Source: a virus. Taken from it: a DNA stretch of 56,818 nt. The notes beneath the pieces are model-generated. The model was not told where the DNA came from and ran no database searches. It was given only the letters and a program-made list of their open reading frames with translations. Both the position numbers and the translations under genes were made by a program. Below, one piece after another: positions 22,836 through 34,372 of the stretch (position 1 is the first letter of the stretch; every line of letters begins with the position of its first letter). The stretch is from IMG/VR virus record IMGVR_UViG_3300017530_000090, positions 1-56,818 of that record; one strand, written 5' to 3'.

Positions 22836-23276
22836 TCATGCGGCAGTCCTACCACGCCGTTTGAGACGGCGCAATTCATTATAATACCACTCCCGACGAG
22901 CAATTTCGTCCGGCGTCGTTCGGGGCGCACTCCGCGCATTTCCTGTATGACGACGACTATCCCCTTTGTTAGCCAAAAAGTCCAACGCCACGGCAATTTG
23001 CTCAGACTTAACCCGCGTATGAGAATGAATATCCCGAAGGAATGCACCGGCCTTCTGGCTCATGATCTGCCATACCCACATATGGCGACGCTTCTCTTGA
23101 CTCAATGTGCCACCCCAACGTTGCCTAAGTTCCCGAAGCACCGCAGGTTCAGATTGACCAACTTGCACCTTCAAAAGATATGATGGCCCCGAAGGTCTAT
23201 CAGATCGTTTTTGCCGACCCACATAAACACAACCTTCGCCGTCGAAGAAACCGGCAGCATATTCATCACTGATCAT
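22836..23276 (-). CDS. LAGLIDADG endonuclease (146 aa)
   Basis: EYAAGFFDGEGCVYVGR is a LAGLIDADG motif, followed by the YLLKVQVGQSEPAVLRELRQRWGG beta-helix pattern. One motif per chain, so a dimer. Translated by ATGA coupling from the DNA polymerase gene (start 23276; the longer frame is rejected). Ends just upstream of the HD gene. Confidence 0.8.
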   Translation of the reverse strand: MISDEYAAGFFDGEGCVYVGRQKRSDRPSGPSYLLKVQVGQSEPAVLRELRQRWGGTLSQEKRRHMWVWQIMSQKAGAFLRDIHSHTRVKSEQIAVALDFLANKGDSRRHTGNARSAPRTTPDEIARREWYYNELRRLKRRGRTAA

Positions 23277-25882
23277 GCGGCGACCTTTTCCTCCCCTTCG
23301 CACACTTGGCACTTATCCGGCGCGCCCTTGTGCACCTGCTCGCTCTGAGTAAGGTGATGGCTCACGTCCTCCCACGCTGGCCCCCACTCTACGTCCACCG
23401 GCACGATCCACGGCCGTCCAACACGGTCAGTCTCCTCGTAGGCTGCGTCCTGCATGACCTTCTGGACGTAACGGGCTACCTCCTCCGCCTGGTCAATGTC
23501 AACTTCCATCATCACGCTGTCGTGAATAGAGGCCACAATCAATACCTTATGGTAACGTAACCACTCATCTTTGTCAAGTCGGATAGTGGCAAGCGAGTGA
23601 ATTTCCGAAGCGCTGGACTGGACAGGATAGTTATAACTTTCACGATAGACGTGCCCCATCTGCCGCTTGTATCCACCGAAATGCTTCATCGTCTCTACGC
23701 CCCAGAACAGGCGGCGACGGTCGAAGATGTTGTAGACCTCGTGCCGGTTGCGGACAGTGCGGCGCTGCTTGGCGAAGTAATCGGGCAGTTTCTCGACAAT
23801 GCCAAAGTACATATCCAGAAGCTCGGCGGCCCGTTCCTTCGAGCAGCCCAACCGCTTCGAGATCGTTTCTTCGGTCATCCCGTAACCGAGGCCGAAGTTG
23901 AAGGTCTTCGCCTGACGACGCTGCTCTTTGGTCACGGGCGTGCCTTCCGGCACATTGAACAGCCGCCGGGCCACGAAGTCGTGCACGTCCGCCCCTGGCG
24001 TCTCCAGCACGCCGATCAGTCGCTCATCCTCCGCGATGTACGCCAGCCCTCGCAACTCGATCTGTGAATAGTCAGCGGACAGCAATACGCGGCCGGGCGG
24101 CGCGATGAAGATTTCGCGGATCGGTGCACCCTCCTCGGACTTGCCCTCGCCGACGACGTTGGCGATGTTCGGACTGTGCGACAACCGGCCCGTCTCGGTG
24201 CCGTCCACGCGGTAGTTGGTGTGCAGCCGGTTATCGACCTTCGAAATCTTGTTCAGCAGCCCCTTCTTGGACTTCTCGCGGGTCTCTGGCTTCGCGCCCT
24301 TGAGGAAGGTCTTCATGATCTGCTCCAGCCCCGCCAGCCGGATCAGGATGGGGATGATCGGGTGTGCGTCTACGCCGACCTCCTCTAGCGCTTCCCTCTT
24401 TACGCTGGGCAGCTTGGCCTTGTCCGTAACGATCCCCGACGGCTCCAGGCCCAGCCCGCCTTCGGAGCGCTCGCCAAACAGGAGTTTGCGCTTCTGCTGG
24501 TCGCTGCGATGATTGAACTTCTCCGGCACCTCCGGGATGGCGTCCAGCAGGGCACGCTGCTCCACTACCAGTGCGTCGTAGGTCTCGACCAGTTTCTCGG
24601 CCTTCTCCCCATCGACCAGGACGCCGTTCTCCTCCATGTGCATAGCCGCCTCGGAGAGCGGCATGGTGACGTGTTCAAACAGCCACCGACGCTTCGGCTC
24701 GGCGTCAAACTGCTTGTCAATTTCAATCGCCACCCGCAGCGTGCAGTCAGCGTCCGCGCCCTGGTACTTCCAGAGGATGTCTAGCGGGCAATCCGCCATG
24801 TGCGTCTTGTACTCGGCGGCTTCGCGGCCGTAGTCACCCATATTTGTGTAGAGGTTGCACAGCGTTTCCAGGGCGTGGCCCGCCTCCTCGTTGAACAGGT
24901 GGTAGCCAAGCATCGTGTCGAACGTGACGTTCTTGAGGTAAATTTCGAGATCGTGTGCGAGGAATAGCTCGTCGAATCGGATGTTCTGTCCGATCTTCGG
25001 CACGTCACTCTGGAAGATGCGGCGGAGGGCGCGGATGATGCGCTTCTTATCGGCGGGCGACCACATCTCCTCGGCCCCCAATCCAAGCACCGGCACAATA
25101 TATGCGGTGCCGGGTTGCCAGGAGACGCCGACGCACAAGACGTTGCCGGTCTGCCAGTCCAGTGAAGTCGTCTCGGTGTCGAGGGAGAGCACACCCGCCT
25201 CGGCCTCAACGAGATCAGCCAGGTGCTCGACGCTCTCTACATCAAGACAGACCGTATACTTGCCGATGCCGTCGTCGAAGACGTCGGGCTGTCTGCTCTC
25301 TTTCAGGGCCTTCGTGAGATCGGCGATGCCGTACTTTTCATTGCTCCACACGTGGAAGGCGGCCGCTGGATGGATGGAGGATACCATCTTCTTGCCTAAC
25401 TCCTCCTGCCACAATACCGCGCCGCGCATCCGCGTGATCGGCAGCGGCTGGCCGCCAGCAAACTTCGCCTCGTTGTACAAGTTCTCTAAAGCGACTCCGC
25501 CCACCGGAACAATTAGATCGGGGTCGGCCCATTCTAACTCATCGAGTAAGAAGCTGCGGCAGTTGCGCACCTCGTCCGCCGTCGGCGCGCGCTCTTTACC
25601 ATCGGCATTTTTCGGGCCGACGCAACGAGTGCTGTTCGTATAATACACATCCTTCTTCGGATCAAATCCCGCTGCAATCAACCAATTGCGAAGCGTCTGC
25701 CCAGCGGGGCCAACAAACGGCTCACCACAATTATCCTCCTCGCGGCCTGGGGCTTGCCCAACAACCGCAATCTTGGCGTGACGAGGCCCGCGCCCCCCGA
25801 CAATACAATTCCGACTCTGAACCAATTCCGGGCATCGATTACATTCGATCACCCGAATACCGTCCCGGACTACACCGCCCAC
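23273..25882 (-). CDS. polA: UDG-exonuclease-DNA polymerase A fusion (869 aa)
   Basis: Residues 1-195 are a family 4-like uracil-DNA glycosylase: Cys14, Cys17, Cys87 and Cys108 in 4Fe-4S spacing, motif A GQAPGREEDNCGEPFVGPAG, and HPAAA (His171). Residues 230-400 are a DnaQ/PolA 3'-5' exonuclease (LSLDTETTSLDW, GQNIRFDELFLAHD). Residues 410-840 are family A polymerase: ADYSQIELRGLAYIAED (motif A), RRQAKTFNFGLGYGM (O helix) and ASIHDSVMMEV (motif C). It replicates the genome and may remove or sense uracil. GTG start 25882 with GGGAGATCAAGTT. Confidence 0.93.
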   Translation of the reverse strand: MGGVVRDGIRVIECNRCPELVQSRNCIVGGRGPRHAKIAVVGQAPGREEDNCGEPFVGPAGQTLRNWLIAAGFDPKKDVYYTNSTRCVGPKNADGKERAPTADEVRNCRSFLLDELEWADPDLIVPVGGVALENLYNEAKFAGGQPLPITRMRGAVLWQEELGKKMVSSIHPAAAFHVWSNEKYGIADLTKALKESRQPDVFDDGIGKYTVCLDVESVEHLADLVEAEAGVLSLDTETTSLDWQTGNVLCVGVSWQPGTAYIVPVLGLGAEEMWSPADKKRIIRALRRIFQSDVPKIGQNIRFDELFLAHDLEIYLKNVTFDTMLGYHLFNEEAGHALETLCNLYTNMGDYGREAAEYKTHMADCPLDILWKYQGADADCTLRVAIEIDKQFDAEPKRRWLFEHVTMPLSEAAMHMEENGVLVDGEKAEKLVETYDALVVEQRALLDAIPEVPEKFNHRSDQQKRKLLFGERSEGGLGLEPSGIVTDKAKLPSVKREALEEVGVDAHPIIPILIRLAGLEQIMKTFLKGAKPETREKSKKGLLNKISKVDNRLHTNYRVDGTETGRLSHSPNIANVVGEGKSEEGAPIREIFIAPPGRVLLSADYSQIELRGLAYIAEDERLIGVLETPGADVHDFVARRLFNVPEGTPVTKEQRRQAKTFNFGLGYGMTEETISKRLGCSKERAAELLDMYFGIVEKLPDYFAKQRRTVRNRHEVYNIFDRRRLFWGVETMKHFGGYKRQMGHVYRESYNYPVQSSASEIHSLATIRLDKDEWLRYHKVLIVASIHDSVMMEVDIDQAEEVARYVQKVMQDAAYEETDRVGRPWIVPVDVEWGPAWEDVSHHLTQSEQVHKGAPDKCQVCEGEEKVAA

Positions 25883-26176: not shown

Positions 26177-28420
26177 TTACTTGCGTCCAATAACCTCGAT
26201 CTGACGAACTTCTTCGACCTCGGCGAGATGGATGCGATAGTGGTGCGTCTTGCCGCGCTTAGGATGGAACAGCATGAATTCCTGCGACGGCAGGCTTGCC
26301 GCCGCGCGGCTCATCTCCACCGACAACAGCGACGGGCCGACGAAGCAGCCGTTCTGCATGACTTCGCCCTGGATTTCCGATTCGCTGGACTGCGCTTCGT
26401 GCAGGTGCGCCTTGAAGTAGTAGTTGATGATCTCGCCCACCACCGCGTTCAGTCGGAACTTGTTGTCCAGCGCGCCCGTGTAGGTGGCCTGGAGACCTCG
26501 GATGCCGTGCCCGTGACGGCCCGAGCATAGCCACCCCAGGATGTCGAACAACGCAATCGCGCCGTAGTGGATGTGGAAGTCGATCTGGCCGCCCGTCAGC
26601 GACCGCACACCATTCGCGCTCGTCGTCCACTCGCCGCCCGTCTCGTGACGCACACGCTCGGCGATAATCTCCCAAGCCATTAGCTCGAAGTTGTCCGGCG
26701 TGTACGCGCCGCGTGCGCGGGCTTCCGTGCGGCCGTGGTTGCCAGGCACCTTGATGATGGTGATGTGCGGATAGCGCTCCAGGTAGCTCAGGATGATGCC
26801 CGTCATGTCCTCGGCGAATCCCATCATCTGGAAGATAATGGACTCGGACATCTGAAGCGCCTGGCTGTTGCCAGTAATAAACACTTTACCATTCCGCCGC
26901 GCTACCCAAGTGCCTGTACTGGTGGTCGGGCACCAAACCACACCACGATACGGCACGGAACGTCGGCTTGTCTTTCCTCGCAAACCATGCCAACGATAAT
27001 TCTCGCGTATAAAGACAGGCTTGGCGTTTTGGCAACTTTGCCCTTGCGTTGCGGTATAGCCCAGTCGGACACACAGAGCTTGGAAGTCTGATAGACGATT
27101 TGCCGTTTCTTTTTGAACGAAGGTATGTCCACCGCGTCTGCGACCGCGCGGGCCAAAAGAGTGACCATCGCCAGCCATCAGCCCTTGGTATAGAGCGATC
27201 AGATGATCGGTAGACCACGACAAGAACCGTACTGGGAAGGCTTTATTTGGACAAAGATCACGAATTCGCCCAGCCACATAACCTTTAATTCGAAATGTCC
27301 GCCCGCCGGAAATATCACCTAGACCGGATTCCACCCAATCGGCGTCAAGCGCACCAAGTAGGGCACGAATCCGATCACATTTCTCAGGGTTAGCTTTGTC
27401 ACTTTGTGAAATCTCCACTGAGTAGCCACGTTGCTTGTCGGTGCCTTCGGCCAAATACCAACCGAGAAGCTCCGCAAACTCATCAGTCATATCAGTAGGT
27501 GAGGCTGACTCCGTATGCGCTCCCCACGGAGCCGACATCGGGAACTCTAAGTGGCTACTTAGTTCTGCTGCGGGGCGAAGCTCCTCACGACCAGTATTAC
27601 GAGATCGAACTACACAGCGATGATTGGGGGTCAGAAGCATGTCGGCAGCACGGGCTTTAATCTCTACCATATCCGTGTGCGCATCGGGGTAAATGTTAAT
27701 GGTTTGTGCCTCTCCCCAACCAAGTGACCCATCCTTATATGTCATCACGATTTGTCCTGGAGCCATCTCGTCATACCGACGCCAACCTTCGATGGTCAGG
27801 CACTCAGTATCAGCGTCGACGCACTGAAACATCTGGCCGTGCCCTTCCAGGTCGTCGCCGAGAGCCAGGATGAATAGCTCGTCCAGATCGACCCAGACCT
27901 GGTTCATCTGCGTGAACCGAAGCACGCCGTTGCGCCAGCGCGCCAACCGATCACGGGCGATGTCGATATTGTACTCCGCCAAGCCATTCGAAGCGCGGCG
28001 GTCAATGCGGCTGTAGTAGTGCAGGTCAGAGAATAGGGCCACGCCAACTTGCGACGACTCGAACCCCATATCTTCGACCTTCGTGGCGCGAATGAACTCC
28101 GGCACTGGCGGCAAGGATCGATACTCCGCCAAGAATTGCGACGCACGCTCTTGGATGTCTAGGAGCATCTGTTGGCGCTCATCAAGAACGTCCGTCTGTT
28201 CCACCTTCACCTTCGGAGGCTTCACGCCCTTGCTACGCAGAACGGCCCGCACGGTTTCAGCCGGGAGGTTGACCTGACTAAACTCGGCCTTGATGCGAAC
28301 CGCGATGGCCACAGGATTCAGGGCCGCCTCTTGCGTCCGCAGCACAATAATGCGCTCACGGACAGCGGTTGCTAGCTCGGCAGGCATCTCTCGGAGACGG
28401 GTGTAGGTCTGCTTTGCCAT
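26177..28420 (-). CDS. Metallophosphoesterase with an intein (747 aa precursor)
   Basis: The exteins form a calcineurin-like phosphoesterase: LFSDLHYY (DxH, residues 131-134), LGDDLEGH (GDxxE), VPGNHGRTE (GNH), HIHYG and AHLHE. The helical N terminus (1-110) is not recognised. An intein occupies residues 200-518, beginning at Cys200 after QMFQ and ending FITGN before Ser519, just after the GDD motif. Splicing leaves 428 residues. Likely a phage DNA nuclease or phosphatase. The neighbouring RuvC supports a role in DNA processing. Confidence 0.9.
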   Translation of the reverse strand: MAKQTYTRLREMPAELATAVRERIIVLRTQEAALNPVAIAVRIKAEFSQVNLPAETVRAVLRSKGVKPPKVKVEQTDVLDERQQMLLDIQERASQFLAEYRSLPPVPEFIRATKVEDMGFESSQVGVALFSDLHYYSRIDRRASNGLAEYNIDIARDRLARWRNGVLRFTQMNQVWVDLDELFILALGDDLEGHGQMFQCVDADTECLTIEGWRRYDEMAPGQIVMTYKDGSLGWGEAQTINIYPDAHTDMVEIKARAADMLLTPNHRCVVRSRNTGREELRPAAELSSHLEFPMSAPWGAHTESASPTDMTDEFAELLGWYLAEGTDKQRGYSVEISQSDKANPEKCDRIRALLGALDADWVESGLGDISGGRTFRIKGYVAGRIRDLCPNKAFPVRFLSWSTDHLIALYQGLMAGDGHSFGPRGRRRGGHTFVQKETANRLSDFQALCVRLGYTATQGQSCQNAKPVFIRENYRWHGLRGKTSRRSVPYRGVVWCPTTSTGTWVARRNGKVFITGNSQALQMSESIIFQMMGFAEDMTGIILSYLERYPHITIIKVPGNHGRTEARARGAYTPDNFELMAWEIIAERVRHETGGEWTTSANGVRSLTGGQIDFHIHYGAIALFDILGWLCSGRHGHGIRGLQATYTGALDNKFRLNAVVGEIINYYFKAHLHEAQSSESEIQGEVMQNGCFVGPSLLSVEMSRAAASLPSQEFMLFHPKRGKTHHYRIHLAEVEEVRQIEVIGRK
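26867..27823 (-). mobile_element. Intein with LAGLIDADG homing domain (319 aa)
   Basis: Splice motifs: Cys1 in CVDADTECLTIEGW (block A), TPNHRCVV (block B), RNGKVFITGN (block F/G, terminal Asn) and Ser +1. The middle has two LAGLIDADG motifs, ELLGWYLAEGTD and LYQGLMAGDGHS, so it is a full homing intein. The penultimate residue is Gly instead of the usual His, as in a minority of inteins. It sits at the conserved metal site of the phosphoesterase, a typical intein location. Confidence 0.9.
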
Positions 28421-29269: not shown

Positions 29270-29374
29270 TCTGGTGCTTGCGCCCTTCGAGACAATGATT
29301 GGCCCGAAGGCTTTCAAGTCCTGTGCTGGAATTGCAACGCTGCTAAGCATCAGTTTGGCTCTTGCCCCCACCAG
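29270..29374 (+). pseudogene. HNH C-terminal relic (GFQVLCWNCN..CPH)
   Basis: The plus frame reads DNDWPEGFQVLCWNCNAAKH and QFGSCPHQ, the C terminus of an HNH family whose intact members end GFQLLCANCNxAKxxxGxCPH. No start or N-terminal part remains. It lies between the LAGLIDADG gene and the SbcC-like gene. Confidence 0.65.
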
Positions 29375-30044
29375 GATTCTTCAGCACCTCGACTTCGGTA
29401 GCGGCCCGAACCACACGAAACCTATAAGCCACATCCGCCGCGTCAACATATTCTGGCTCTTGCGTCACCATCAACAACTGGAAGCCGAGACGGTCGATGA
29501 GCGCGGCCGCCATTTCCGCGAGGGGTTGGCGGTAGTCGGGGCTGACATGAGCAAATGGTTCATCTAAAATAAGTACCAGTCGAAGCAATGGCCGGGACGC
29601 CATGATCAACAGGGCGCGGAGCAGGAAGGCGATAATGCCAATGTAGCCCCCGCCTTGTCCGGCCATGACATCCTCTTCTTGCCCATTCTTGATGAGCACG
29701 AATTCCACGGCACTCATGTCGGCCTTTGTTGATGGCTCAATCTTTAGCCGTAGCTCTCCCCCGAACACGTGAGACAGCCCTTCGGAGACGATGGTCTCGG
29801 TCGACTTCTGGAACTTGCGCTGCCAGACCTGCTCCATCCCTTGAAGCAGATCGAGAACGGTGCGCAGAATCTCGGCCTCATCGCCGGTCGCGGCGACTCG
29901 CGCCTCGGCCTCAACGAGCGTGGCGGCGACGGCCTCCCGCGCGCCTTCGTGCCGGGCTAGCTCCTGGCTGATCTGTTCGAGGCGCGTCTGGAGACGGCCC
30001 GCGATCTCGTCAACTTCGTGTAAAGACGGACTCGGCTTCGTCAA
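29343..30044 (-). CDS. SbcC/Rad50-like ATPase, C-terminal half (233 aa)
   Basis: A coiled-coil start (EVDEIAGRLQTRLEQISQEL) leads into the second ABC half-site: signature-like AGQGGGYIGIIAFLLRALLI, Walker B LVLILDEPFAHVSPDYR, and LLMVTQEPEYVDAAD. There is no Walker A, which is on the separate protein at 31236-32183. The two chains must associate to form a working ATPase. TTG start with AACTGGAGGAGCACC. Confidence 0.85.
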   Translation of the reverse strand: MTKPSPSLHEVDEIAGRLQTRLEQISQELARHEGAREAVAATLVEAEARVAATGDEAEILRTVLDLLQGMEQVWQRKFQKSTETIVSEGLSHVFGGELRLKIEPSTKADMSAVEFVLIKNGQEEDVMAGQGGGYIGIIAFLLRALLIMASRPLLRLVLILDEPFAHVSPDYRQPLAEMAAALIDRLGFQLLMVTQEPEYVDAADVAYRFRVVRAATEVEVLKNPGGGKSQTDA

Positions 30045-30276
30045 GGTGCTCCTCCAGTTGCTCCAAGTTCTCTTGGATCGCAGCGACCAGCCGGTTCGTC
30101 TGACGCCCTAAATCACGATCAGGGTCGAGACCAAGTTCTTCAATAGCATCGTCAGCAGCCGCGAGTTGATCCTCGGCCGCGCTCTTCTTCGTGCTCGCCT
30201 CAGTCACCCGCGTCTTGGCGCTATCCACACGCTGTCGCAAGTCAAGCACCTGTTGTGTAGCATCCTTCTCAGCCAT
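30010..30276 (-). CDS. Coiled-coil protein of the split SbcC system (88 aa)
   Basis: Almost wholly coiled-coil (VLDLRQRVDSAKTRVTEAST, EELGLDPDRDLGRQTNRLVA, LEQLEEHLDEAE). ATG 30276 overlaps the SbcD-like stop, and its end overlaps the C-half gene. Position and composition suggest it supplies the returning coil strand between the hook on the N-half and the C-half ATPase. Confidence 0.75.
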   Translation of the reverse strand: MAEKDATQQVLDLRQRVDSAKTRVTEASTKKSAAEDQLAAADDAIEELGLDPDRDLGRQTNRLVAAIQENLEQLEEHLDEAESVFTRS

Positions 30277-31246
30277 TGATCACATCTCCGCCTTCCAAGT
30301 AATAATGCAGTTTCTCGACCACGGTTGGCGGCTGCCCCTTCGTGTAGCGAGCGATCAATTCGTCCATCGGAGTCTCTTCAATCTCCAGGGATGACGCCAG
30401 ATTCTCGGCGAATTCGCTAAGCTGCCGCTCCGTCGCCACCTCCTGCTCGAAGAATACCTCCTCGGCCGGGCGGGCAGACGTGAGTGGGTGTCGTTCAAAC
30501 TCAATCTCACCATGATCGAGCGTCACAACCAAGACTCCCGGCCGCCGCTCTAGGTTGTGCTTGGTGCGCTCGACACGAGCGATGGAGCCGATGTTAGTGA
30601 ACCAGCAGCCGGACGACAGTTGGTGGATACCCAAATCCTCGTGGATATGCCCGGCGTGAAGCACGTGCAACAAATCGGTCGGCAGCTTGTCGGCATCGTG
30701 ATGCGGATACGGCCGGGAATCCCCCGGCGGCAGGATCGAGGCGTGTGCAACCATGATCGTGTACCCGCCCTTTGGCCGCAACGCTACTTCCTCCTTCTTG
30801 AGCTTGAAGATGTGTGGCAGGTTGTCGATGTATGGCTCCCAGTTTCGGGGCACGAACAGCGCCTTCTCGCCATTCGCCTCGATAACGCGGGCCTTGTCCA
30901 ACCAGATCAGCGCGCCCGCCTTGATCATGACTCCGAATGGCATCGAGAATACCGACTCAACGCCAGAGTATGAGAAGTCGTGATTGCCGCCGACGCCGTA
31001 GATATCAACAGGCCGCCGCTCGTACAATTCCAGGAGCCGCGCCAGCAGCCGGTTGATGTTGATGACGCCCCGAAACTTGTGGAACCAGTCGCCGGTATCG
31101 ATGATGAAGTCACAGCCGGTGCGCGCAGCGATGTCGAACGTCTCCTCCTGCTTGGCCAGAACGTCCTCCATGTATGAGTCCGTGCGGCCAAGCGGCGGCC
31201 GGTCAGCGTTGTGTAGGTCGCCCCTAACGAGGTATTTAATGCTCAT
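30269..31246 (-). CDS. sbcD: SbcD/Mre11-like nuclease (325 aa)
   Basis: Calcineurin-type nuclease motifs: RGDLHN, DTGDWFHK, GGNHDFS, MVAHASI and AGHIHED (GHxH), in the Mre11/SbcD order. Start 31246 overlaps the SbcC-N gene end. With the split SbcC it would process DNA ends and hairpins. It sits between the two ATPase halves in the operon. Confidence 0.88.
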   Translation of the reverse strand: MSIKYLVRGDLHNADRPPLGRTDSYMEDVLAKQEETFDIAARTGCDFIIDTGDWFHKFRGVININRLLARLLELYERRPVDIYGVGGNHDFSYSGVESVFSMPFGVMIKAGALIWLDKARVIEANGEKALFVPRNWEPYIDNLPHIFKLKKEEVALRPKGGYTIMVAHASILPPGDSRPYPHHDADKLPTDLLHVLHAGHIHEDLGIHQLSSGCWFTNIGSIARVERTKHNLERRPGVLVVTLDHGEIEFERHPLTSARPAEEVFFEQEVATERQLSEFAENLASSLEIEETPMDELIARYTKGQPPTVVEKLHYYLEGGDVING

Positions 31247-32183
31247 GCTCGCCCCACGCTTCAGTTGAGCCACAGAGCGGGCAGGCTCCTAGCTCCGTTA
31301 CCAGCTTCTCGTACCGCTGCTCTAGCTCCGCCAGATCATCGCGCGCCTGCTCCTCCTCGGCCCGGCCCACACCAGCCGCGGCCGCCGCCTTCTTCGTGTG
31401 CTGGATGGCAGCCACAATCCCTTCCAGCGCCGTCACGCGCTCATCCAGAGCCTCGACCTCCTCCGGTCGCGGGAGCGTCAGATCAGCGATGCGCAGGGAG
31501 CCAGCGATGTCTTGAACGATGTCGTCGGCCTGCTTTGCGGCACCAAGTTGCTCTTTGGCCACCCGCATCAGCTTGTTGGCCCGATCCATGACGTCGCGGG
31601 CGCGGTGCACATTCGGCAACTCGGCAAGCTGCGCCTTCGTCCGCTCGGCCTCCTCTTCGGCTGCCGTATTCGCGCGCTGGGCGCGTTTCAGATCACGGCG
31701 GCAGTCCATCTGCGCCTCCACCAGCACCGAGAGCTTGGTGAGCTTGGCCAGGGCGCGGGCAGCAAGCGTCGAGGACTCCGTGAGCAGGAGCGGTAGATCG
31801 TGCTGCGAATGGAATTGCGGCGTGAAGGACAGGCCCTTATCAATCTCGATCCGCCGAATGCCGAGCACGTTCTCGATGTCCTCCGGCACCGCGCGGCCGG
31901 TGCGCGTGTACACTTGATCGTCCGAGGTGTAGGTCGCGCTCTTGTCGCGCGGCTTCTCCCACTCGACCGTCTTGCCGCCATCGAGCGTGAGACGTACCCA
32001 CGCTTTCTGGCTCTTATGGTTAATGAACCGATGCCCTACCTGATTAAACGCCAGAGCTTTCAGGGCACGGATCATGGAAGACTTACCGTTCCCCGACGGG
32101 CCGACAATGACCGTGAATCGGCCAAGCACCAGATCGATGTCCTTGATGGACTGATAGTCTTGAATTTCCAGCCGCTCTAGCAC
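31236..32183 (-). CDS. SbcC/Rad50-like ATPase, N-terminal half with zinc hook (315 aa)
   Basis: Starts LERLEIQDYQSIKDIDLVLG with Walker A GPSGNGKSS (residues 28-36). A long coiled-coil follows (residues 150-295), and the chain ends at CPLCG (Cys301, Cys304), the Rad50 zinc hook, only 11 residues before the stop. Normal SbcC/Rad50 turns here and comes back in the same chain. GTG start overlaps the small gene upstream. Confidence 0.88.
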   Translation of the reverse strand: MLERLEIQDYQSIKDIDLVLGRFTVIVGPSGNGKSSMIRALKALAFNQVGHRFINHKSQKAWVRLTLDGGKTVEWEKPRDKSATYTSDDQVYTRTGRAVPEDIENVLGIRRIEIDKGLSFTPQFHSQHDLPLLLTESSTLAARALAKLTKLSVLVEAQMDCRRDLKRAQRANTAAEEEAERTKAQLAELPNVHRARDVMDRANKLMRVAKEQLGAAKQADDIVQDIAGSLRIADLTLPRPEEVEALDERVTALEGIVAAIQHTKKAAAAAGVGRAEEEQARDDLAELEQRYEKLVTELGACPLCGSTEAWGEHEH

Positions 32184-32269
32184 TTGCCTTGGCCTCCCGA
32201 ATCGGATACAATATGGGAAAGGTCGACCTCATGAAGCGCGTCCACCACCGTCCTAATGATGTTCCACAT
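32177..32269 (-). CDS. Short peptide between recA and sbcC-like gene (30 aa)
   Basis: TAATG overlap with recA and CCCGGAGGTGGCATA make it clearly translatable (MWNIIRTVVDALHEVDLSHI). One amphipathic helix. Possibly a small recombination accessory or just a coupling peptide. Confidence 0.55.
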   Translation of the reverse strand: MWNIIRTVVDALHEVDLSHIVSDSGGQGKC

Positions 32270-33354
32270 TATGCCACCTCCGGGAAGCGCTTCCGCACGG
32301 TCTCCGACCAGAACTCCTCGCGGGCCGCCACGGCGATACGCTCGCGCAGCCCTGGGGAATCCGCCAGAATCTCGTGGAAGTTCGCTTCGTGGAACGACTC
32401 GTCGACGTCGGCCATCTTGTACCAGGAACCCTTCTTCACGATCATGCCGAGCTTCACGGCGGCCTGGAAGTGGGCATAGTCGTCGTCGAAGCCGTAGTCG
32501 AACGTCACCCGAATCTCGGCCTTGCCGAACGGGTTCGAGCACTTGTTCTTGCTGATCTTGGCCCGCGACATAATGCCGTAGGCCGGGCTGTCCCTATCCC
32601 CGCGTCGCAACTCTTGCGCCTTCCGCATGTCGATGATGGTGCTGGCATGGAATTGCAACGGGCGCTTGGCGATCATCGTGCTGCTGTCCATGCTGCCGAA
32701 CGGGCCGGTATCGATGTTCTCCTTATTCTGGTTGACGATGATCAGAACAATGTTCTCTTTGGCCACGATGGGCATGATGCGACGTAGGGCGGCGCTCATG
32801 ATCTTGGCGTGCTCACCAATGGCCTTGGACTCACCGAATTCGCCTTCGGATTGAGCTTTCGTCTGCGTACCGCCCACGCTGTCCCAGACGATGGTGGCCA
32901 ACGTGTCGGGCGTCTCCTCCCGTACCGCCTTGATGCTGTTTTCGATTAGCCGGATCGCCGCTTCAACCGTCTCCGGTTGCGCCAGCAACAGGTCTTCGCG
33001 GCGCAAGCCCAGGCGGGCAGCGCGGGATTCATCAAACGCGAATTCCGCGTCAAGCAGAATAGCGATCCCATCACGGCGCGCGGTTTCGGCTAGCAGGTGC
33101 GTGATGAGCGAGGTCTTGCCGGAGGATTCCCAGCCACGCACTACCGTCAGGCGGCCGACCGGAATGCCCGGCATATTCAACGCCAGGTCGAGAGCGAGGT
33201 TCTGAGTCGAGAGGTAGTCCTTGGCCCCGGCCACCTCGCCGGTCAGAATGCTCGACTCCTCGCCCTCGCTCTTGCGGATATGCTGGACTACAGCGTCAAT
33301 GAGGCGGGCGGGCTTTCCGTCGCCCGCCTCCGCCCGCTTCTTGCCTCGCTGCAT
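32269..33354 (-). CDS. recA: RecA-like recombinase (361 aa)
   Basis: Walker A GWESSGKT (residues 74-81; bacterial RecA has GPESSGKT), LLDAEFAFDESRAARLG, IVWDSVGG (Walker B) and IVLIIVNQNKENID with the L1/L2 region. Strand-exchange protein for phage recombination-dependent replication. Cotranscribed after the SSB and before the SbcCD-like genes. Confidence 0.93.
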   Translation of the reverse strand: MQRGKKRAEAGDGKPARLIDAVVQHIRKSEGEESSILTGEVAGAKDYLSTQNLALDLALNMPGIPVGRLTVVRGWESSGKTSLITHLLAETARRDGIAILLDAEFAFDESRAARLGLRREDLLLAQPETVEAAIRLIENSIKAVREETPDTLATIVWDSVGGTQTKAQSEGEFGESKAIGEHAKIMSAALRRIMPIVAKENIVLIIVNQNKENIDTGPFGSMDSSTMIAKRPLQFHASTIIDMRKAQELRRGDRDSPAYGIMSRAKISKNKCSNPFGKAEIRVTFDYGFDDDYAHFQAAVKLGMIVKKGSWYKMADVDESFHEANFHEILADSPGLRERIAVAAREEFWSETVRKRFPEVA

Positions 33355-33355
33355 C

Positions 33356-34372
33356 TTAGTCCAAGTCCTTCACGCGGCCACGGACTCGGCTGCTGCCGGA
33401 GCTACTCTTCGTGCCGCTGCTCGGCTTGGCCTTGCGCTTGCGCGGCGGTGGATCGTCCTCCGGCTCCGTCTCCTCCTCCGTCTCCTCCTCAGTCTCCTCC
33501 TCCGGCTCCTCCTTGGCTGCGCGCCGTCGGCGGCGCGGCGGTGGATCGTCCTCCGGCTCCGTCTCCTCCTCAGTCTCCGCGCAGCGGGAGCGTCGACGCG
33601 GCACGGGATCGTCGTCCTTGCTATCGGACTTCTCCTCCGGCTCCTCGTCCTCGCTATCACCGTTGTCGTCCTTCGACTCCGTGCGGGCGCGACCGCCCGA
33701 CCGGCCCTTGTACGTGCGCTCCATCTCATCGTCGGTGGTGAACGCCTGCACCTTGGCCAGATCAGGCAACTCGAATTCCTCGTCCAAGAGCGCCTGGAAC
33801 ATCTCGCCAACGGTGTCGCTGCGATGGTTCAGGAGCTTGTCGGACGGGAACGCCTTCGGGCGCGTCGGCGTGGCGTCGTACTTGGTGTTGATGCCGCTGC
33901 CGGTCTTCTCGACCAGGATGTCGAAGCCCTCTTCGAAGCTCGTGAAGTCGCCGTAGTCCTCCTCGTTGAGCCAGAACTTCTTCAACTGCCGGAAGATCGT
34001 CTTGGGGCAGGGCCAGACCTGCACGCCATTCTGCGGCTTCTCCAGATCGACGATGTTGAGCAGGTAGCGCGGGCGAGCACCCATTGCCTCGGACTCGGCC
34101 TTCTCGTCGTCATCGCCGTGCGCCAGGCGCTTCACCAGGCGGCACAGGAAGCAGGAATCGGCCACGCCGGACATATCCGGGCACGGCACGGCACGCTCGT
34201 CGGGGCCGACGTTGAAGTGCGTCCCCGTGACGAACCAGAATTCCTTCACGCCATCCGCCCACGGTGGCATAACGCGAATGCGGCTCTCGCCCTCTGGGGG
34301 GTTCCAAAACTCCGCGCCGCCCCCGACCGGCGCGCTTTCGACTGCTTCTCGGCTCGGCTTACCGTAACCCAT
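33356..34372 (-). CDS. gp32-like single-stranded DNA-binding protein (338 aa)
   Basis: Core residues 15-200 match T4 gp32-like SSBs: FWNPPEGESRIRVMPPW, then H...CPDMSGVADSCFLCRL (zinc Cys/His), YLLNIVD, FRQLKKFW. The C terminus is a 110-residue low-complexity tail alternating acidic runs with RRRR blocks, in DNA repeats of the EEETEPEDDPPPR type. The acidic tail is where partner proteins dock in this class. Confidence 0.85.
   Translation of the reverse strand: MGYGKPSREAVESAPVGGGAEFWNPPEGESRIRVMPPWADGVKEFWFVTGTHFNVGPDERAVPCPDMSGVADSCFLCRLVKRLAHGDDDEKAESEAMGARPRYLLNIVDLEKPQNGVQVWPCPKTIFRQLKKFWLNEEDYGDFTSFEEGFDILVEKTGSGINTKYDATPTRPKAFPSDKLLNHRSDTVGEMFQALLDEEFELPDLAKVQAFTTDDEMERTYKGRSGGRARTESKDDNGDSEDEEPEEKSDSKDDDPVPRRRSRCAETEEETEPEDDPPPRRRRRAAKEEPEEETEEETEEETEPEDDPPPRKRKAKPSSGTKSSSGSSRVRGRVKDLD

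Follow-up and report, generated by a model that had tools for sequence, protein, structure and literature searches.

Phage genes for a probable three-chain Rad50/SbcC, divided just after the zinc hook and linked to an Mre11-like nuclease

Results

The window analyzed here is a 56,818-nucleotide stretch of viral DNA (IMG/VR record IMGVR_UViG_3300017530_000090, positions 1 to 56,818). Its minus strand carries a row of four open reading frames, each overlapping the next, which we call N, M, S and C in that order. N (31236-32183) starts with GTG and encodes 315 amino acids; S (30010-30276) starts with ATG and encodes 88; C (29343-30044) starts with TTG and encodes 233. M probably begins at an ATG at position 31246, giving a gene at 30269-31246; the mechanically assigned GTG at 31273 lies farther upstream and is the less likely start. 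Shine-Dalgarno-like stretches precede N (gggagg), S (ggcggag) and C (ctggaggag, 5 nt from the TTG), and a weak one (gtgggg) precedes M. An earlier note on this DNA had described an SbcC/Rad50 ATPase split into three genes around an SbcD nuclease, and the reading frames are as it described them, with N, S and C all in place and an SbcD/Mre11-like gene between N and S. Upstream, this gene row continues on the same strand with genes for a RecA/UvsX-like recombinase (32269-33354; PF00154, 1.6e-46; phrog_97, 1.6e-53) and a gp32-like single-strand DNA-binding protein (33356-34372; PF08804, 8e-12; phrog_1192, 6.5e-37). A RuvC-like resolvase and a family A polymerase are encoded downstream of the four genes.

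N has the features of the Walker A half of Rad50/SbcC. It matches AAA_23 (3.6e-8) and phrog_16465 (3e-27), and a profile built from its relatives matches the N-lobe of an archaeal Rad50 (5f3w_B) at 1.9e-15. Its AlphaFold model is locally confident (pLDDT 89.4) and retrieves Rad50/SMC N-lobes in Foldseek (~5e-6); it consists of a head extending to about residue 150, helices at residues 152-188, 192-232 and 240-298, and a tail containing the sequence CPLCG. The Walker A motif, GPSGNGKS, occupies residues 28-35 (32079-32102, minus strand), the helical arm residues 152-298 (31290-31730, minus strand), and a putative half zinc hook, CPLC, residues 301-304 (31272-31283, minus strand), 11 residues from the C-terminus. 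Among 60 relatives of N, the Walker A residues G28, G33 and K34 and the Q-loop residue Q127 are invariant, and C301, P302 and C304 of the hook are nearly so. The conserved CxxC is C-terminal in N, unlike the zinc hook of Rad50/SbcC, which sits at the coiled-coil apex. This placement is a property of the family: of 95 distinct complete N-halves, 88 have a CPxC motif among their final 40 residues. The same holds for 1 of 748 other ORFs of comparable size, and none of 90 Mre11 ORFs has a CxxC in that interval. CxxC is missing from the N-halves of a small subclade (L001:6001-7053, L108:7989-9074 and L165:8001-9062) that includes Microbacterium phage Magritte. Family searches detected no SMC-type hinge in N, M, S or C, N ending at CPLCG. 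The three-way division just after the hook that the earlier note had proposed is thus borne out, N, S and C being separate genes and N terminating in a CPxC tail.

C supplies the complementary lobe. It matches phrog_15167 (2.5e-18), and the profile built from its relatives matches the C-terminal chain of Pyrococcus Rad50 (3qkr_B) at 1.2e-17. The model is again locally confident (pLDDT 91.7), showing one helix at residues 8-94 followed by the second (Walker B) lobe, and Foldseek aligns it with Rad50/SMC C-lobes (~1e-8). The Walker B motif ends in DEP (residues 156-163; 29556-29579, minus strand), with D161 and E162 invariant in 74 relatives. The signature that the earlier note had assigned to C needs revision: alignment with Pyrococcus Rad50 places the degenerate sequence QGGGY at residues 130-134 (29643-29657, minus strand) where LSGGE would be expected. 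The family consensus is R-G-G-G-V, the forms seen across the family being xGGG or GGA/GGS, and most relatives have glycine at the serine position, so that the LSGGE/Q signature of Rad50/SbcC is missing. In canonical Rad50 the signature serine touches ATP. Since it is replaced in most C-halves, ATP-driven engagement of the heads may be altered in this family. Between them, N and C nonetheless hold the Walker A, Q-loop and Walker B elements of a Rad50/SbcC head, and both lobes are Rad50-like in sequence and fold; profiles and AlphaFold models agree on this identity.

M matches the Metallophos family (7.5e-10) and phrog_100, and its profile, made from four sequences only, matches Mre11 at 2.8e-5. 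The phosphodiesterase metal ligands D10, H12, D53, H89, H168 and H202 are invariant in 65 relatives, as in an Mre11/SbcD nuclease, which upholds the partner named in the earlier note. Mre11 also occurs in natural fusions, with the N-half only (L029:5039-7162, L040:5132-7450 and L148:7059-9374); in the first two the hook still lies near the C-terminus of the fusion. Gene linkage, these fusions and the intact metal ligands would fit a split Rad50 that works with Mre11/SbcD. One Mre11 ORF (L066:2878-5112) is 744 amino acids long and contains a LAGLIDADG domain, probably an intein.

S is a small coiled-coil protein with two helical stretches around the sequence LGLDPDRD; it matches phrog_18563 (8e-5). 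Profile searches of PDB and Pfam, based on an alignment of 57 relatives, returned only generic coiled coils and repeat artefacts, and the S profile gave no match to intact gp46 or SbcC. We therefore rejected the idea that S is a recognizable piece of the Rad50 coil.

Profile scans of viral contigs yielded about 160 loci, which were reduced to 121 groups by merging those with an identical protein; the contigs are related to one another, and these counts do not represent independent events. Every member encodes N, S and C as separate ORFs, no ORF joins N and C among the loci from the two scans, and the same scans found no intact close relative. The order N-S-C, which is that of the corresponding parts in intact Rad50, is kept in all 65 groups that have the four genes. 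The position of M is less constant, lying between N and S in 42 of these groups, after C in 21 and fused to N in 2. In whole records no shorter than 100 kb, N never occurs without C, nor C without N, even though the two halves lie about 39 kb apart in one such record. Named members include Microbacterium phage Magritte, in which the halves are genes 155 and 2, Bacillus phage vB_BboS-125, Microcystis phage Mvi-JY20, whose contiguous N-M-S-C genes are all annotated as hypothetical, and Tunturiibacter phage Tunturi_5, identified from its C-half only. A scan for C in bacterial genomes, run with a Firmicutes subset, added ten loci that had not contributed to the profiles. All ten have S, C and M, and nine also have an N carrying a CPxC tail; the exception is a fragment of 10 kb. 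The genomes are those of Paenibacillus, Brevibacillus, Sutcliffiella, Moorella, Lachnospiraceae and others, cultured Firmicutes among them. In one jumbo phage a gene for a DNA polymerase processivity factor (L003:16494-17627; phrog_947, 9.9e-23) lies between S and C, and in many other loci a gap of about 1.1 kb separates S and C at the same place.

A mistake in sequencing or assembly, or a programmed frameshift fusing the parts into a single chain, is favored only by gene ends that lie near one another or overlap in the window, and we consider this explanation close to untenable. Another gene, for Mre11 or a clamp, stands between the parts, and elsewhere N and C are tens of kilobases apart; independent isolates and metagenomes share the structure; and N, S and C are each preceded by a Shine-Dalgarno-like site. 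All four ORFs are retained in the closest relatives (74-85% identity), where dN/dS is 0.08-0.24 for every one of them, S included, indicating purifying selection. Intervening genes, distant halves and this selection led us to reject an artefact, and what the earlier note had named as grounds for abandoning its reading, an intact relative together with signs of a frameshift, did not materialize. Its suggestion to look for the same split in other phages was rewarded, the split recurring in about 120 contig groups and in named phages. Because the arrangement is found both in relatives at 74-85% identity under such constraint and in these contig groups, chance is excluded.

The same data bear on whether the genes are the decaying remnant of a rad50, with the host SbcCD doing the work. 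The degenerate signature of C could be taken in this sense, and three of four bacteria checked (Paenibacillus, Sutcliffiella and Brevibacillus) do have long SbcC frames of ~1150-1230 amino acids. Decay is nevertheless highly improbable given dN/dS values of 0.08-0.24 on all parts, invariant Walker A, Q-loop and Walker B residues, and the strict co-occurrence of the N and C halves. Somewhat less remote, yet still improbable, is that N and C are independent ATPase subunits, each with other partners. The distance between the two genes in some genomes would suit such an arrangement; however, neither half has a complete ABC site, N lacking Walker B and C lacking Walker A, and both are present whenever the record is large enough.

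The arm of N, counted from residue 152 to the hook, varies between 145 and 348 residues among relatives. Its lengths fall into classes near 150, 197, 242, 300 and 347 residues, a period of ~49, and long arms show internal repetition at a lag of 47 residues (z ~15 against heptad-preserving shuffles). S (mostly 75-115 amino acids) and the helix of C (median 81) do not follow these changes. As a full return strand for the N arm, S and C together would be of suitable length for the short arm of the window and too short for the long-armed relatives. Given an N arm that varies and an S and C that do not, these two proteins cannot simply make up the whole return strand where the arm is long; self-pairing of the arm, or pairing with that of a partner, is thus conceivable.

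Discussion

The same cut recurs in about 100 other phage genomes, and on this ground we regard the split Rad50 as a real design. At the level of sequence, its gene structure, homology, conservation, co-occurrence and colinearity are established. The interpretation that we favor, and hold to be very probably correct, is that these phages make a naturally split, three-chain Rad50/SbcC which works with Mre11 in phage recombination. N would provide the Walker A motif, the Q-loop and a helical arm with a half zinc hook at its tip, and C the head-proximal return helix, the modified signature and Walker B, so that the two proteins would have to meet to form one ATPase head. Two such heads and two Mre11 subunits would constitute an end-processing nuclease, in which two N tips might share one zinc and S might pack on the N arm. 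The nuclease would be used in recombination and replication of the phage, along with the UvsX-like and gp32-like proteins encoded nearby. By analogy with T4 gp46/47, the surrounding genes suggest a role in recombination-dependent replication and repair.

It is worth considering what the cut does, and does not, change at the hook. In canonical Rad50 each chain contributes one CXXC, and the zinc is held by two chains (PMC9569753). The earlier note had supposed that the hook cysteines ordinarily join two halves of one loop, a contrast that is mistaken since canonical hooks already bridge two chains (PMC9569753). What the split removes is the covalent return strand across the hook; it does not make an intrachain bond interchain.

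The part played by S is less easily settled. S is probably a remnant standing for the lost distal return strand. One could also envision that N and C assemble by themselves and that S is a separate regulator or latch, with a role like that of kleisin or Nbs1, rather than a piece of the arm. We give this possibility a little less than an even chance. It would account for the constant length of S while the N arm varies (r = -0.11), and for an S profile that has no specific link to the Rad50 coil and fails to detect intact gp46 or SbcC. On the other hand, the N-S-C order of 65 out of 65 loci mirrors the intact Rad50 chain, and N, S and C abut or overlap in several Firmicutes phages. Whichever role S has, the arm need not be an antiparallel hairpin. 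We tentatively entertain the idea, as a minority view, that the N arm, with its ~47-residue modules and a free half-hook at the end, pairs with the N arm of a partner protomer, C and S bracing the head-proximal part only. If such pairing were true, arm length could shift module by module with no matching change in a return strand.

The closest analogies are with T4 gp46/gp47 and bacterial SbcCD, which likewise have a Walker A lobe, a CxxC hook motif, a Walker B lobe and an Mre11 partner; the likeness to T4 extends to the neighborhood, with UvsX-like and gp32-like recombination genes in the same row. In contrast to the three proteins found here, with the hook in a C-terminal tail, gp46 and SbcC are each one chain with the hook in the middle (position 288 of 560 in T4, 324 of 637 in SPO1L5). 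The intact T4-type Rad50 is matched by 3825 phage records. As neither the single antiparallel-folded chain nor the LSGGE motif of Rad50/SbcC is present in our family, we classify it as a Rad50-derived split variant and not as a canonical member. A precedent for a head composed of separate N and C polypeptides exists in the structures of the Rad50 catalytic domain (PDB 1f2t, 1f2u and 1ii8). Those are laboratory constructs, whereas here the two-chain state is natural and is accompanied by an arm, a hook tail and a third protein.

Mre11-Rad50 fusions have been reported in Mimivirus and its relatives, as have fusions without one P-loop segment in a Bacillus phage (0305phi8-36) and in Anaerostipes (PMC3175470). 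The latter may be an unrecognized case of the same split. Mre11/N fusions exist in the split family too (L029, L040 and L148); that study reports the fusions without identifying a separate gene for a C-half or for S. Passages of a jumbo-phage survey treat SbcC and SbcD as nearly universal, and no split of SbcC/SbcD was found in those passages (PMC7824862). N, C and S are already contained in PHROG 16465, 15167 and 18563, labelled "exonuclease", "ATPase" and unknown function, respectively, but these families are not linked to one another or recognized as the pieces of one Rad50. No description of a split Rad50 was found in the literature searched, outside which lay bioRxiv preprints and most subscription journals; the architecture, as the earlier note had suspected, is apparently undescribed.

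As to its origin, a tree of N-lobes separates 78 split rows from eight intact ones by a single branch (SH-aLRT 100). The intact references were T4, S-CAM1, Stab21, SPO1L5, a T5-like phage, two bacterial SbcCs and an Ackermannviridae protein. The tree is a quick one, of 165 columns and few intact references, and its topology fits a single split event. It would appear that a phage lineage cut the Rad50 chain at the hook and lost the signature serine while keeping the rest under selection. Signals are thought to travel between the zinc hook and the ATPase head of Rad50 through its continuous, folded-back chain. As a natural system, a split Rad50 would let hook, arm and head be swapped or titrated separately, and could serve to test how Rad50 machines work. 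It would also allow many phage genes now labelled "hypothetical", "exonuclease" or "ATPase" to be read as parts of one machine.

Some further features of the window deserve mention. Downstream of the four genes, a uracil-DNA-glycosylase-like domain and a family A DNA polymerase with 3'-5' exonuclease are encoded in one ORF (23273-25882, minus strand). An exonuclease-like gene of phrog_284 (26177-28420, minus strand) contains an apparent intein (MFQ|CVDADTECL...VFITGN|SQAL); the relative in L006 lacks an insertion there. At the 3' end of C, the plus strand (29274-29401) can be translated as FQVLCWNCNAAKHQFGSCPHQDSSAPRLR, which resembles the end of a cysteine-rich, HNH-like ORF of 157 amino acids (L005:8644-9117, minus strand) and looks like a truncated remnant in the window. 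In L005 this HNH-like ORF is convergent to the C-half.
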